In this document: positions 4,519 to 63,994 of the stretch, piece by piece
How the letters are laid out: each line of letters begins with the position of its first letter
Position numbering within the stretch: the first letter of the stretch is position 1
Source: an uncultured Prevotella sp.
Lineage (GTDB): Bacteria > Bacteroidota > Bacteroidia > Bacteroidales > Bacteroidaceae
Direction: 5' to 3'
NCBI GenBank assembly: GCA_945833995.1
Contig: CAMAGM010000001.1
Span: 22,631 to 86,630 of the forward strand
Length of the DNA stretch: 64,000 nt
Notes under the pieces: generated by a model
Databases searched by the model: none
The model's input: only the letters and a program-made list of their open reading frames with translations
Told to the model about the DNA's origin: nothing
Translations under genes and position numbers: made by a program

Positions 4519-4617
4519 TAAAGGAGTTCAAGGAGTTAAAGACGTATGTCTGTGGCTTGCTAACTCCCTAACCCCAAAGCGAAATCACTATTGTCTTTAA
4601 CTCCCTGAACTCCTTTA
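4519..4617. repeat. intergenic hairpin element E4, AGGAGTT family
   Basis: 4519-4543 TAAAGGAGTTCAAGGAGTTAAAGAC vs 4593-4617 GTCTTTAACTCCCTGAACTCCTTTA: 24/25 inverted match. Confidence 0.88.
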
Positions 4618-4639
4618 ACTCTCCTAAAAAAATATAGTT

Positions 4640-6199
4640 ATGTTTATAAAGATATTACTTACGATAGTTTTCCTCTGCGTCACGGTGGCAGTAGGAGTGT
4701 ATTCAAGAAAGCAGGCGAAGTCGGTTGACGGCTTTGTGCTTGGCGGACGTTCGGTAGGTCCTTGGCTCACAGCCTTCGCCTACGGCACGTCGTATTTCTC
4801 TGCCGTGGTTTTCGTTGGCTATGCAGGACAGTTCGGTTGGAAATACGGAATGTCGGCATCGTGGATTGGCGTGGGCAACGCCATCATCGGCTCACTGTTG
4901 GCGTGGCTCGTTCTGGGCAAGCGTACGAAACTGATGACACAACACATACAGAGCCGCACCATGCCCGACTTTTTCGGCACACGATATGCCGACGAGGGAT
5001 TGCGCGTGGCGGCTTCCATAATAGCCTTCATATTCCTCATTCCCTACACAGCCGGCGTGTATATGGGCATCTCTAAACTCTTTGAGATGGGATTTGGAAT
5101 ACCTTATACCTACTGCGCCATAATCATGGCTCTGCTAACCGCCATCTACGTCATTCTCGGCGGTTACAAGGCAACAGCTATCAACGATTTCATTCAGGGC
5201 ATCATAATGCTCTTCGGCATAACGACGGTCATTGCCGTGGTGCTCCACAACCAGGGCGGACTTACGGAAGCCGTGGCGAAGATGTGCGATGCAGTGCCTA
5301 CTGCCCACGACCTTGAGGACAAGTCGGGACTGTTTGCCAACTTCCAGGCGGGTGAATTCGCCTCGTGGTTCGGCCCAGCACCTTTGAGCCTGCTCGGTGT
5401 TGTAGTCCTGACATCGCTCGGCACATGGGGACTGCCACAGATGGTGGGCAAGTTCTACTCCATCACCGATGAGTCGGCAATACGCCGCGGTACGATTATC
5501 TCTACTATTTTCGCCCTTGTTGTGTCGGGTGGCTGCTACTTCCTCGGAGGTTTCGGACGACTGTTCCCTGAGCCAGCCTTCAGTCTCGAAAAGCACAAGT
5601 ATGCCTACGATAGCATCGTGCCCTCCATGCTTGAGACATTGCCCGACGTGCTCATAGCCCTCGTGGTGCTCCTCGTCCTCTCAGCCTCCATGTCAACCCT
5701 CGCCTCACTGGTACTCACATCATCTTCTACAATGACCCTCGACCTTATCTATCGCGACAAGAAATCGCAGGAGGGCGAAGTGGAAGGTGGCGAGATTGAC
5801 GACATCGTGGCAGAAAAGATAGAGCGTCGCAAGGTACTCGTGATGCGAGTGCTGATAGTGTTCTTCATAGTGCTCTCGCTGATGATAGCTCTCAACCCGC
5901 CGCAGTTCATTGCACAGTTGATGGGCATCTCGTGGGGAGCCCTTGCCGGTGCCTTCCTTGCCCCATTCCTCTTGGGACTCTACTGGAAGGGCGTTACCCG
6001 CATCGCCGTATGGGCATGCTTCGTCTGGGGCGTTGGACTCACGGTAGTAAACATGATGCTTGGCAACGCCATCCTCAACCCCATCGACTGCGGTGCGGTG
6101 GCAATGGTGGGAGGCTTCGCCGTGGTCTGGATAGTCAGCCTCTTCACACCGAAGATGAAACAGGCAACTGTAGAAAACATATTTAAATGCTATGAATAA
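4640..6199 (+). CDS. sodium:solute symporter family (SSS) transporter
   Basis: 519 aa multi-TM; KSVDGFVLGGRSVGPWLTAFAYGTSYFSAVVFVGYAGQFGWKYG motif of the SSS family. Confidence 0.88.
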   Translation: MFIKILLTIVFLCVTVAVGVYSRKQAKSVDGFVLGGRSVGPWLTAFAYGTSYFSAVVFVGYAGQFGWKYGMSASWIGVGNAIIGSLLAWLVLGKRTKLMTQHIQSRTMPDFFGTRYADEGLRVAASIIAFIFLIPYTAGVYMGISKLFEMGFGIPYTYCAIIMALLTAIYVILGGYKATAINDFIQGIIMLFGITTVIAVVLHNQGGLTEAVAKMCDAVPTAHDLEDKSGLFANFQAGEFASWFGPAPLSLLGVVVLTSLGTWGLPQMVGKFYSITDESAIRRGTIISTIFALVVSGGCYFLGGFGRLFPEPAFSLEKHKYAYDSIVPSMLETLPDVLIALVVLLVLSASMSTLASLVLTSSSTMTLDLIYRDKKSQEGEVEGGEIDDIVAEKIERRKVLVMRVLIVFFIVLSLMIALNPPQFIAQLMGISWGALAGAFLAPFLLGLYWKGVTRIAVWACFVWGVGLTVVNMMLGNAILNPIDCGAVAMVGGFAVVWIVSLFTPKMKQATVENIFKCYE

Positions 6200-9397: not shown

Positions 9398-9545
9398 AAA
9401 GGAGGAGAGAGGAGTGAGGAGAGAGGAGTGAGAAGAGAGGAGTGAGAATACTTCACTGCGCAGCTAACACCTAAAATTCAAGCTTCGCTAATCTCACTCC
9501 TCTCACCTCACTCCTCTCACCTCTTACCTCTCACATCTCACCCTA
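9398..9545. repeat. intergenic hairpin element E6 (GAGGAGTGAGA)n/(TCTCACTCCTC)n
   Basis: Left arm 9398-9448 polypurine GGAGGAGAGAGGAGTGAGGAGAGAGGAGTGAGAAGAGAGGAGTGAGA; right arm 9491-9545 polypyrimidine; spacer TGCGCAG at 9457-9463. Overlaps the 3' end of the GH2 gene. Confidence 0.83.
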
Positions 9546-58366: not shown

Positions 58367-59617
58367 TCATTTATTAGAGTCCATAACTGGCAGTGGAATA
58401 CATATTTTATAAAACCTTGCCAACTTATCTACATGAGTCGTACATAAATCACGAAGTTTCTTCTTCAAAAACGGATTCCTCACTATATTTCCTTCTTTGG
58501 GATAAATGATTATGCAAGGAACATTTGGTATGGGAGATTCTTCATCTATATCCTTAAATCCAAGATGTTGTAAGATAGGAATGTCTCTACTATAACCACT
58601 TAACTGCCATATCACTTCTTTGTCAAGTGATGTTGTCTCATATCTTGGAATATATTTCGTGTCAAGTATTGCCTTAAAACCAGTTGCGCCATAAAGGAAG
58701 TCTGGTAATCCCGTCTTACCTTTGAATTGATACGATATTTTGTCTCCGTATGCTTCATTTAGCAATCCATATACATAGTGCTCATAAAGCAAGGACATAT
58801 CCAGAGTAAACGGAGGAACATTTTCGTCCAAAGCACTTGTTTTACTGATGCTGTAATCGTATCTCCTAAGAATAAGTTTTGCCAAACGTACAGCCTCATT
58901 GTATTCACTAAAGAGTTTATGCCCCTTTATCTGAGAAACTTCCTTTATCTGTACTTCATCACTTACGTTTTCAAACAGAGCCAGAGATTTTGATAGCATC
59001 AGTTTGCATTTGTTTCCTATGGGATGAGTATCTGTTATTGTTTTGAGTATCTGGGAACTGAACAATAAGGCTTTCTTGATAAGCCTGTTTTCTGGAATGT
59101 CAACGGTATATTCGTCAAAGTCACAAAATACCCTATCGAATCTTTTTGAAGCAATGTTTTTTCGCTCATTCTTCATCACCCGTATGTGTCCTTTGACTTT
59201 TTTCAGATTCTCGCTAAAATGTACATAACCTTTCTTCAAAGATTTGATTCTACTTACAACTCCAAGAAAATGCAGAACAACGAGAGGACTTAAAACACCT
59301 TTTAGCGATGGCGCATGTATGACAGGAGCCTCACTATCAATATTGTATATCTCAGCGAAGGACTCCACAGACAAGTCTGATGAGAAGCATGTCATGAACA
59401 TGGTAAGAAAATCAATTTCTTCCACTCCTCGCTTTGTCGTTACAACTAATGCCTCCTTATTATCATCTATCCACTCTGCTCCAATAAAATATGATGCATA
59501 ATATCCCAATGGATCGTGTTCCATAGGTTTATTCCATCGAACAAGCTTCAGGTTATCATATCTGTCGTTTTGTTCAACGCTCAGAAGTTCGTGTTCTTGA
59601 ATAAGAATGGATTTCAT
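58367..59617 (-). CDS. mcrC: McrC-family restriction endonuclease subunit
   Basis: FLGVVSRIKSLKKGYVHFSENLKKVKGHIRV, then PD-(D/E)XK-like block GLPDFLYGATGFKAILDTKY; follows mcrB. Confidence 0.9.
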   Translation of the reverse strand: MKSILIQEHELLSVEQNDRYDNLKLVRWNKPMEHDPLGYYASYFIGAEWIDDNKEALVVTTKRGVEEIDFLTMFMTCFSSDLSVESFAEIYNIDSEAPVIHAPSLKGVLSPLVVLHFLGVVSRIKSLKKGYVHFSENLKKVKGHIRVMKNERKNIASKRFDRVFCDFDEYTVDIPENRLIKKALLFSSQILKTITDTHPIGNKCKLMLSKSLALFENVSDEVQIKEVSQIKGHKLFSEYNEAVRLAKLILRRYDYSISKTSALDENVPPFTLDMSLLYEHYVYGLLNEAYGDKISYQFKGKTGLPDFLYGATGFKAILDTKYIPRYETTSLDKEVIWQLSGYSRDIPILQHLGFKDIDEESPIPNVPCIIIYPKEGNIVRNPFLKKKLRDLCTTHVDKLARFYKICIPLPVMDSNK

Positions 59618-59629
59618 ACCAGTTGTCTA

Positions 59630-61441
59630 TTATTCGTTTTTATCTTCTTCGTCTTCATCCTCTGTCTCTGGGATTGGACTCAGAGCAAGCCAAGAGTTAA
59701 AGGCCGTTTCCTTTTCTTCTTTCTTTACATTCAGGATACCATCGTTGATATATTCGTTGATAAGAGGAAGGATTTCATACTCTACTTTGTCGTGAAGTTC
59801 ATCTTCACTTTCTGCCATGAAGTAACTATGACCTACCATCAAATCATCTATGCTCATGTCGCCACAAAGATGTTTAGGATTCTCAATGAATTTCTTAATG
59901 TCCTCAAATAAACCTAAAGCAATATTTCCAAGTTCTTCATTGGCTATATCAGAATAGTATTTTTTAATCACAGAATTCTGAGACTTGAGTGTTACGAATG
60001 CGAATCTTCTACGTAGTGCATAGTCAAGTGTTCCTGTACTTCTATCTGTGGTATTCATTGTACCTATGATATACAGGTTTGACGGTACTCCAAACTCACC
60101 CTTTGTATATGGTAGCATCACCTTGATAGGATGATTTCCATTAAGTCTCTTATCTGATTCCAACAAAGTAATGAGTTCACCAAATATCTTTGAGACATTT
60201 CCTCGGTTGATTTCGTCAATAATCAGGACCACAGATTTATCATTACTTTGATCTGTTTGCACAGCATTGCAAGCACGTTTGAAGATGCCATCCTCTGGCT
60301 CGTATGTTACACCTATAGAATTACCGTCAGCATTAGTTTGCACATGAGGCTTCAATCCTTCCACAAAATCCTCATAATCAAGTGACTGATGGAATGTTGT
60401 GAAGAATATCTGCTCTCCACGCAATGAGTCATAGCGTTTCATCACAGCTTTATGGTCTGTGAGGTCAATATCTTTAATACCTAATGTCTTTAAGGCTATA
60501 GCAGCGGTATTATATGTTTTACCCGTGCCAGGAGCACCTTGAAGAATTATGTTACGCTTCTTTAAGAGAAGATTGGAGCATTTCTCCAAATATGCAATGT
60601 CATTCATATATTTTAACCAACTTTCGATGTAACTATATTGTTCTGTGCCTTTTCTACAAGAAGAGAACGTTCCTTGAGAGAATAATCCTGCTCGCGGTTG
60701 CCTAAACTCGTTTGCCCATGCCAGTATCCTGACTTTTCTAAAATTTACATTGATATAGTTCTCACACAGAGAATCACTGGTGAAATTGTCACCTATAATC
60801 TGACATAATGCTAATGCTTGGCTGCCTCTTCTGACAAGAACTATATTCCCATTTTCAATTGTTTTGAAGTTTTGGCATTGAGCATCATTCCATTCGCCAG
60901 TTCCGATTACAGGCTCAGGCTCCCTCAACATTAGATTAGGATCAATGACAGTTCCACCTTTACCCTTTGGAAGATGCATTTGAATATGCCAGAATTTATC
61001 ATATTCTGTTTTTAAGGGTAAAATGGGTACATGCGCTTGTTCTACTTTTAGAATATCTTCAATAGTCGTTCCGTTAAGAATCCAGTATTTCTTTTCTGCT
61101 GAAGATTCACCATGTTTTGCTAATTCCTTCTGCAAAATGGAATCCAAACGACCATCCTGTATCTTGTTGTAGTAAGTTTTAAGAATCTTATCGGTATCTG
61201 TGCCATTACCTTGCTTATCATCGTGCTTTTCTTTCGTGTTGTTTATGTAGCCCACGAACCTGCTTGGAGCAAAACAAATATGACCGTCAATTACCTCAAC
61301 AACCATATTTTTGCCTCGCTTCAATTTATCAACAGCCCATTGTTTGTAGTCTTCACCGCTCTCACCGTGAAGATATGAGTACAAAGTTTCGACGTTCGAA
61401 ATGATGTCCTCGCGCTTTTCTATGTAATCAGTTCTTTCCAT
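59630..61441 (-). CDS. mcrB: McrB-family AAA+ GTPase
   Basis: Walker A ILQGAPGTGKTYNTA, Walker B VVLIIDEINRGNVSKIFGELITLLE, McrB-type NTP signature IGTMNTTDRS. Confidence 0.93.
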   Translation of the reverse strand: MERTDYIEKREDIISNVETLYSYLHGESGEDYKQWAVDKLKRGKNMVVEVIDGHICFAPSRFVGYINNTKEKHDDKQGNGTDTDKILKTYYNKIQDGRLDSILQKELAKHGESSAEKKYWILNGTTIEDILKVEQAHVPILPLKTEYDKFWHIQMHLPKGKGGTVIDPNLMLREPEPVIGTGEWNDAQCQNFKTIENGNIVLVRRGSQALALCQIIGDNFTSDSLCENYINVNFRKVRILAWANEFRQPRAGLFSQGTFSSCRKGTEQYSYIESWLKYMNDIAYLEKCSNLLLKKRNIILQGAPGTGKTYNTAAIALKTLGIKDIDLTDHKAVMKRYDSLRGEQIFFTTFHQSLDYEDFVEGLKPHVQTNADGNSIGVTYEPEDGIFKRACNAVQTDQSNDKSVVLIIDEINRGNVSKIFGELITLLESDKRLNGNHPIKVMLPYTKGEFGVPSNLYIIGTMNTTDRSTGTLDYALRRRFAFVTLKSQNSVIKKYYSDIANEELGNIALGLFEDIKKFIENPKHLCGDMSIDDLMVGHSYFMAESEDELHDKVEYEILPLINEYINDGILNVKKEEKETAFNSWLALSPIPETEDEDEEDKNE

Positions 61442-61471
61442 ATAAATTCTTAAACTCTTATTTCTCCATTC

Positions 61472-62590
61472 TCATGCCTCATCCTCCTTTTCCTTATATT
61501 CTGCAATCCATTCTCGCAGTTTTTGTTGAAGCAGGGCCTTGTCAGGCAGACAGAGTGCATATTGCTGTGCATAGATATTGGCATCCTGTGGCAAAGTGAG
61601 TTCTACGAGAGCATCATTCTTGCGCTCGCAGAGGAGAATGCCGATAGTTGGTTTCTCGAAATCCTCTTTCACGAAGCGGTCATAGTAGTTGACGTACATC
61701 TGCATCTGACCGAGGTCCTGATGGGTGAGGTCATCCATCTTCAAGTCAACGAGGACGTAGCACTGAAGCAGGCGGTTGTACAGCACAAGGTCAACATAGA
61801 AATGTCGCTCCTCAAAGGTGAACCGCTTCTGCCGCGCCTCGAAAAGGAATCCCTTGCCCATTTCGAGCAGAAAGTCTTGTAAGCGGCTGATAATTGCACT
61901 TTCAAGGTCACTCTCGCTATAGGATGCATCCGATTTCAAACCAATGAATTCCAAAACCACGGGGTCCTTGATGATGTCAGATGGTTTCTCTACCACCTGC
62001 CCCTCGGTAGCCAGTCGCATCACTTCGTCTTTGTCACGACTAAGCGCCAGACGTTCATAGAGACCACTGCCAATCTGACGTTGCAGTTGACGTTTGCTCC
62101 ACCCCTGTTTGGATGCTTCTATCTCATAGAAACTACGTGCGTCGGGATCTGAAACATGCGTAAGTATCAGATAATGAGACCAAGAAAGGACGAATTGAAG
62201 ATTTCGTAACCGGTGGTTACGATTTTCGGAATGGATTTCCGGATCGGTGGTTTGGATTTCTGTTCCCTTAATTTCGTAACCGCTGGTTACGGTTTTTGAA
62301 TATAGGACATAAAACTTACGCATTGTTGTAAGGTTTTCCACCGACCACCCTTTTCCTAATCGCTCGGTAAGTCGTTCAGAAACACGTTTCAACACCCCTT
62401 TGCCATATTCGGCACGCACCTTGCCGCCTTGTTCGTCCTCAATAATATAACGACCTACCTCATAGTATGTATATACCTGAGCTGTATTGGCAACAGAAGC
62501 TACCTTCTTACGTGCCTCTATCACCAAGTTCTCTATCTTTTCAGCCAGATGTGTGGCTCTGGTTTCGATGTTTGCAATCTCGTTTGCCAT
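61472..62590 (-). CDS. PD-(D/E)XK nuclease, YhcG/DUF1016 family
   Basis: YYEVGRYIIEDEQGGKVRAEYGKGVLKRVSERLTERLGKGWSVENL; C-term FTFEERHFYVDLVLYNRLLQCYVLVDLKMDDLTHQDLGQMQMYVNYYD. Confidence 0.95.
   Translation of the reverse strand: MANEIANIETRATHLAEKIENLVIEARKKVASVANTAQVYTYYEVGRYIIEDEQGGKVRAEYGKGVLKRVSERLTERLGKGWSVENLTTMRKFYVLYSKTVTSGYEIKGTEIQTTDPEIHSENRNHRLRNLQFVLSWSHYLILTHVSDPDARSFYEIEASKQGWSKRQLQRQIGSGLYERLALSRDKDEVMRLATEGQVVEKPSDIIKDPVVLEFIGLKSDASYSESDLESAIISRLQDFLLEMGKGFLFEARQKRFTFEERHFYVDLVLYNRLLQCYVLVDLKMDDLTHQDLGQMQMYVNYYDRFVKEDFEKPTIGILLCERKNDALVELTLPQDANIYAQQYALCLPDKALLQQKLREWIAEYKEKEDEA
62201..62296. repeat. degenerate palindromic repeat inside the YhcG/DUF1016 CDS
   Basis: ATTTCGTAACCGGTGGTTACGATTTT (62201), ATTTCCGGATCGGTGGTTTGGATTTC (62235), ATTTCGTAACCGCTGGTTACGGTTTT (62271). 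Confidence 0.8.
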
Positions 62591-63857: not shown

Positions 63858-63994
63858 TTTAATGTGGTTGAATATCCAGCGGCAACGGCTGGGGGTGTGG
63901 GCGTCTCGCCCGCACCTTGCGCACCATCATGCAAAATGCCTTTTGTCAATATTACCTCGTAGGCGAGGTGCGGGCGAGACGCCCACACCCCCAG
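63858..63994. repeat. palindromic MITE-like element with perfect 29-bp inverted arms
   Basis: CTGGGGGTGTGGGCGTCTCGCCCGCACCT (63889-63917) and exact reverse complement (63966-63994), 48-bp loop; subterminal TTTAATGTGGTTGAATATCC (63858-63877) matches 15356-15375 inverted at 18/20. Confidence 0.92.

Follow-up and report, generated by a model that had tools for sequence, protein, structure and literature searches.

Palindromes in the hinge of YhcG/DUF1016 nuclease genes as putative recognition sites of the proteins encoding them

Within the window, i.e., the whole analysed stretch of 64,000 nucleotides from an uncultured Prevotella sp., the gene for a predicted nuclease carries in its interior three degenerate copies of a 26-nt repeat (62201-62296), which raises the question of what a palindromic array means inside the coding sequence of such a protein. 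The repeat search of the window found the copies at exactly the positions given by the initial annotation, and they are situated, as stated there, in frame in the hinge of a YhcG protein (372-aa ORF, 61472-62590), where they encode the peptide reported for them. All three are given on the minus strand. Copy 1 (62271-62296; CCGTAACC-AGC-GGTTACGAAATT), with 92% identity to the reference copy of the search, is the first palindrome after the putative recognition helix, its centre lying 25 nt past the helix codons. Copy 2 (62235-62260; 73%) is degenerate, and close relatives possess a near-perfect version of it (AAAATCCAAACCAGTGGTTTGGAAATT). Copy 3 (62201-62226; AAAATCGTAACCACCGGTTACGAAAT), which is itself the reference copy, has the same stem as copy 1 but stands in a different reading frame. 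The description of the array as palindromic applies fully to copies 1 and 3, both with the perfect core CGTAACC-N3-GGTTACG, but in the middle copy the palindrome has decayed. This core occurs twice in the draft genome of 2.9 Mb, both times inside the yhcG gene of the window.

The gene (61472-62590, minus strand) belongs to the YhcG/DUF1016 family by both of its domains (Pfam PF17761, E = 3.7e-36; PF06250, E = 1.6e-51), and PADLOC flags it as PDC-S02, a defence candidate. The DUF1016_N domain comprises residues 19-180 (62051-62536, minus strand) and the PD-(D/E)XK nuclease domain residues 205-358 (61517-61978, minus strand; both by Pfam). D267, D282, and K284 of the nuclease domain fall on columns that are invariant across 51 homologues, and with these conserved catalytic-domain residues present, the protein is predicted to be a nuclease. 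For YhcG, a mainly alpha-helical N-domain with no confident matches and a nuclease domain related to Holliday-junction-resolvase-like nucleases have been described (PMC1189080). The AlphaFold2 model of the window protein has a low mean pLDDT of 62 overall, with a good N-domain that is all-helical and shows mostly good pLDDT at residues 1-100 and 131-170. Residues 101-130, i.e., the hinge, are unstructured in this model (pLDDT <40) and are flanked by helix 84-98, which is preceded by helix 61-78, and by helix 137-143. A sequence search found no solved homologue of the protein, and a fold search gave no significant match.

Concerning the neighbourhood, a McrB-like AAA protein (59630-61441, minus strand; ORF and Pfam) is encoded 30 nt downstream of yhcG and is probably co-transcribed with it, and a McrC-like protein (58367-59617, minus strand; PF10117, E = 1.2e-24) is a further neighbour. 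The three genes are packed tightly on the same strand (58367-62590) and possibly form a combined defence operon. Other repeats of the window are purine/pyrimidine heptamer arrays of the CTCACCC/GAGGTGA type, some of them in facing pairs (643-749, 1405-1443, and 9402-9542), and, near the window end, a 32-nt inverted repeat with 97% complementarity and a 42-nt loop (63889-63994). Two weak matches to miRNA models were traced to this unrelated inverted repeat, which matches weakly and by shape only, and were discarded.

Similar palindromes are found throughout the family, as sampled by 80 homologous loci of GTDB species plus some 30 more from the genus. They are around 27 bp long, number one to several per DUF1016 gene, and are mostly situated between the codons of the helix and those of the conserved SWSHY motif; 53 of 71 and 70 of 80 DUF1016 genes possess them, and the remainder had none by the same scan. 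By label, their hosts are Bacteroidales, Treponema, Fibrobacter, Verrucomicrobia, Clostridia, Desulfobacterales, Nitrospirae, Granulicella, and Betaproteobacteria, among others, and yhcG of E. coli K-12 (b3220) contains three. An odd centre is common to each of the 99 best palindromes, whose rough consensus is AATT-N6-ACAsTGT-N6-AATT. Over 94 DUF1016 genes, the hinges hold 1213 bases in perfect arms vs 119 +/- 27 after synonymous shuffling, about ten times more than the encoded proteins require; outside the hinge, the same genes show no excess (564 palindromic bases vs 585 +/- 59). Chance or local slippage as the origin is rejected by this synonymous-shuffle null, and since the stems track protein residues and are held as DNA in three frames (see below), the palindromes are not what repeat slippage predicts.

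Two assumptions of the initial annotation did not survive this comparison. The linker is not normally short in this family, DUF1016 hinges ranging from about 7 to 70 aa, and the palindromes, which occur family-wide across phyla and track putative DNA-reading residues, are no repeat-driven insertion peculiar to this window or genome. The homologues were also checked for a conserved linker free of nucleotide repeats, and their hinges carry palindromes instead. In a second DUF1016 class (L008:4082-5212 and L003:867-1955), palindromes of a similar kind occupy as many as three fixed positions in the gene (-255, -78, and +33 nt, counted from the helix) and encode IVATVSQQL-like repeats. YhcG/DUF1016 genes were present in 122 of the 297 sampled genomes of the phylum; on a Cetobacterium plasmid (L432:1-2169), one separates the hsdM and hsdS genes of a type I restriction system.

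At radius 6 of the stem, 170 of 197 pairs are Watson-Crick, vs 57 expected from the columns, and all four pair types are found. The 99 palindromes are distributed over the reading frames as 66/30/3. Copies of the same gene in different frames share at least 5 of 6 stem bases in 38% of pairs, as compared to 5% between genes, and within a gene the stems of different-frame copies are as alike as those of same-frame copies. Among the mismatches, G.T is rarer than A.C (44 vs 113), and at radii 6-7 only 1-2 G.T were seen where 11-20 were expected. Judged from these base comparisons, it is as a DNA sequence that the palindromes are conserved, and not at the level of protein or mRNA.

The stem bases, in turn, can be predicted from the protein. 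The putative HTH-like recognition helix of the window protein, as suggested by the AlphaFold2 model and by stem-base prediction, has the motif GWSVENLTTMRKFY (residues 81-94; 62309-62350, minus strand), the general form of which is G[FW]S-a-b-c-L-d-e-f-R-x-F-Y; in this scheme, d is position 7. Among 102 discovery genes, the association between helix position 7 and stem position -8 was the strongest, and the rules for helix 7/-8 and helix 4/-6 were fixed on these genes before fresh genes were fetched. The fixed -8 rule, which constitutes the clean test of the code, was obeyed by 17 of 20 new combinations in fresh genes of the same genus and by 29 of 36 in the phylum and in plasmids of several phyla (shuffled: 13.8, with a maximum of 24 in 2000). 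The helix 4/-6 rule had appeared convincing in the discovery set (D with G in 15/16, E with T in 22/27) and was withdrawn after 24 of 46 vs 20.8 in fresh data. At -8, Glu/Asp are associated with C, Lys with G, and Trp/Tyr/Phe/Ala with T (pooled: E with C 32/33, K with G 22/23, W with T 15/16, Y with T 14/14, A with T 8/8), and tree-independent pairs agree at about 15:0 for acidic, 14:0 for basic, and 13:0 for aromatic residues or Ala. Thr, Ser, and Arg at helix position 7 are poor predictors, T88 of the window protein being among them. In a pool that includes the discovery genes, and for which Phe was added and Thr and Ser were dropped after the fact, the -8 rule holds for the first palindrome past the helix in 106 of 109 genes (33 by chance); later copies obey it less (43/55 and 16/20).

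When all 238 protein columns were trained on discovery genes and scored on fresh ones, the best out-of-sample predictors were helix 7 for -8 (kappa 0.53), helix 4 for -7 (0.43), helix 8 for -5 (0.74), and the residue after SWSHY for -4 (0.76), with medians around 0.01-0.04. This last residue (column C47) corresponds in the window protein to L141 (62168-62170, minus strand), a putative contact of stem position -4. Arg at this place is accompanied by C at -4 in 49 of 49 cases, with G on the partner strand, and Lys/Arg at helix 8 by C at -5 in 38 of 43. In common direct-readout chemistry, Arg/Lys go with G and Glu/Asp with C, and the observed pairings fit this scheme. Four-contact rules from 94 genes, applied to 88 fresh genes, picked out the own palindrome with a mean AUC of 0.89 (shuffled 0.50), a value that is somewhat optimistic because the contact columns were chosen partly with the fresh genes in view; for 20 fresh genes with C-parts <50% identical to every training gene, the AUC was 0.86. 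With its own clade left out of training, the window protein ranks the stem of its copy 1 first of 182 palindromes. Nearest-neighbour prediction by whole-helix identity is only moderate (4.54 of 8 bases vs 3.44 at random), and cluster-weighted mutual information over all data is noisy, with non-helix columns beating the helix for -4, for -6, and slightly for -8.

The hinge was suspected by the initial annotation to be a hypervariable site in a defence gene, which is borne out for this PADLOC candidate inasmuch as near-identical genes and E. coli strains differ there. The genes L083 and L086 are 99% identical outside the hinge and 45% identical within it. E. coli hinges come in two main cassettes, with flanks mostly 90-100% identical, and the alleles L262 and L263 exhibit compensatory changes in the arms (CGCC/GGCG vs CTCC/GGAG). 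A swap of the hinge is accompanied by a swap of the preceding helix, and in unrelated bacteria, a given helix type recurs together with its stem. Palindromes have also been lost, two of them by a 78-nt in-frame deletion in an O157 strain (L261), and in other E. coli strains (L260 and L274) through frameshifting deletions. In many E. coli strains, including B strains, yhcG is broken in or beside the third hinge palindrome (L257, L258, L256, and L266); as IS elements or rearrangement are involved, the hinge truncations in E. coli B and others were rejected as evidence of self-cleavage.

As helix and palindromes adjoin and recombine together, shared cassette ancestry may inflate their association and may explain part of it. 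The putative -4 contact, situated on the far side of the hinge, speaks against such ancestry being the whole story, and the latter does not predict the single-residue switches that are found on a constant background (e.g., VETLDKC/TCGTCTA vs VETLKKC/GGGTCTA).

We consider it probable that the palindromes are cognate DNA-recognition sites of the proteins that encode them, and DUF1016_N is best read as a sequence-specific DNA reader. The N-terminal domain would bind the palindrome as a dimer, with one half-site per subunit, and contacts would be made by helix 4 to -7, by helix 7 to -8, by helix 8 to -5, and by the residue after SWSHY to -4; in the window protein, these would be E85 to -7, T88 to -8, T89 to -5, and L141 to -4. 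The palindrome would then be encoded between the two DNA-reading segments of the domain, and helix and hinge would be exchanged between alleles as one cassette, such that the match of reader and site is kept while the specificity diversifies. There are reasonable grounds to expect that the target of each nuclease of the family can be read from the palindromes of its own gene, and that the partly decoded code at four positions predicts the target of any member, including E. coli YhcG.

What the self-recognition serves is a matter of more tentative judgement. Our first guess is that binding inside the gene body would throttle the transcription of a dangerous nuclease or would mark the gene, and autoregulation as the main purpose is put forward with some reserve; self-cleavage driving cassette exchange would be the next guess. 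The data are compatible with autoregulation, with a controlled self-cleavage that results in cassette exchange, and with rivalry among mobile DUF1016 copies. It seems rather unlikely that the sites serve site-specific self-cleavage (as a driver of homing or of cassette exchange) or attack on incoming copies of rival DUF1016 elements and not autoregulation: the conserved PD-(D/E)XK residues, the kinship of the nuclease domain to Holliday-junction-resolvase-like nucleases (PMC1189080), the swapping of hinge cassettes between otherwise near-identical genes, and the frequent occurrence of DUF1016 genes on plasmids would all agree with such a role, yet uncontrolled self-cleavage would be lethal, and exchange can also result from ordinary recombination.

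The distribution of the palindromes beyond the family was studied in 546 whole genomes, of which 249 were sampled from the genus and 297 from the phylum. The search used the strict pattern AATTN6ACAsTGTN6AATT; pairing of the N6 stretches is not required by it, and rarer palindrome variants fall outside it. Among 37 palindromic matches (loci fetched, with 4 or more of the 6 positions pairing), 36 are situated in DUF1016 genes, including one DUF1016 relic (L112), and the lone exception (L119) is intergenic. This palindrome (L119:1501-1527, same genus) is of the DUF1016 type and identical to one inside a DUF1016 gene of another genome (L118). Strict matches with fewer pairing positions are a mix of decayed copies and chance hits; in viral contigs, scans for DUF1016 found few genes, and pattern matches there are mostly due to chance.

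A few similar palindromes are situated in the flanks of genes. Repeated segments with palindrome pairs 55 nt apart are found on the flanks of Fibrobacter DUF1016 genes (L029:2860-2915 and 4570-4625; L031:446-501). A RhuM-like gene (L043:1609-2863) has similar pairs, 54 nt apart, on each side, in the manner of the terminal repeats of small mobile units. In the viral contig L227, the fetched stretch of which is without DUF1016, the identical palindrome AATTCCCCAGACACTGTCTGCGGAATT at 4739 and 6061 flanks a two-gene pair, possibly an antitoxin/toxin module.

A REP-like selfish palindromic element, tolerated in a disordered hinge (pLDDT <40, residues 101-130) much like Rickettsia palindromic elements in coding regions, and finding a safe harbour in the nuclease gene, could be imagined from the palindromic, multi-copy, in-frame nature of the array and from the similar palindromes outside DUF1016 genes (L119, the flanks of L043 and of the Fibrobacter loci L029/L031, and the viral L187, L227, and L240). 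We regard this as improbable: nearly all sites sit in DUF1016 genes, and stems that track the helix and the residue after SWSHY are not predicted for a mere passenger. Still less can be said for quasi-palindrome correction, i.e., template switching at the fork that makes and keeps perfect palindromes in a tolerant linker without any function. The joint change of both arms even between the E. coli alleles L262 and L263 would suit this process, as would a hinge unstructured in the AlphaFold2 model, but the AATT and ACAsTGT core common across phyla, the confinement to a single gene family, and the residue-to-base rules obeyed by fresh genes would go unexplained. Coding-region mRNA hairpins regulating translation or mRNA decay are the least credible alternative, for although the palindromes would fold in mRNA, G.T is tolerated no more than A.C, the Rfam family search at the hinge site gave no match, and pairing in RNA does not by itself account for the helix code.

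If the palindromes are indeed sites read by their own proteins, each DUF1016/YhcG member would have a predicted DNA target and DUF1016_N a domain function, and the family would represent a protein-DNA code found in nature, with a reader and its matching site both contributed by each gene. It would also constitute a new arrangement, the sites of a nuclease forming part of its own coding sequence, with a ready test in E. coli K-12. DUF1016/YhcG is widespread and flagged as a defence candidate, and the palindromes would point to its substrate if this reading is right. In the open-access literature, with few subscription journals or preprints covered, no paper was found that connects DUF1016/YhcG with a DNA target or with palindromes inside the gene itself; relative to that literature, the palindromes, the putative DNA-reading helix, and the predicted target would be new for this family.

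Concerning known systems, REPs are extragenic and dispersed, and the RAYT gene is flanked by them (PMC3733652). The hinge palindromes resemble them as short multi-copy palindromes tied to a nuclease-like gene but are situated inside an ORF and are nearly absent elsewhere, and the window nuclease is PD-(D/E)XK by Pfam, not HUH. Dispersed extragenic copies were not found, the window's own core being restricted to its two occurrences in the gene and 36 of 37 sites to DUF1016. Rickettsia palindromic elements, of around 100-150 nt, insert into coding sequences as well as into RNAs and intergenic regions (PMC4316617). The in-frame position within coding sequence is common to both, whereas the DUF1016 palindromes measure around 27 bp, stand at a fixed site in a single family, and agree with residues of the encoded protein; insertion into many unrelated genes was not observed.

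Homing endonucleases cut the allele that lacks their gene. They share with DUF1016, whose specificity is deduced from sequence, the coupling of a sequence-specific nuclease gene and its target, but the DUF1016 sites stand intact inside their own gene, and the window gene likewise contains intact palindromes instead of interrupting a target site. Autoregulated HTH repressors read a dyad in their own gene, and their helix residues and operator bases co-evolve. DUF1016 resembles them in the putative reading of a dyad in its own gene and in the co-evolution of helix and bases; it differs in that the reader bears a nuclease domain, and in that the sites are coding sequence between two contact segments, at a position conserved across phyla. 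As is expected of a self-recognising DNA-binding protein, residues of DUF1016 proteins predict the bases of their own sites in unseen genes.
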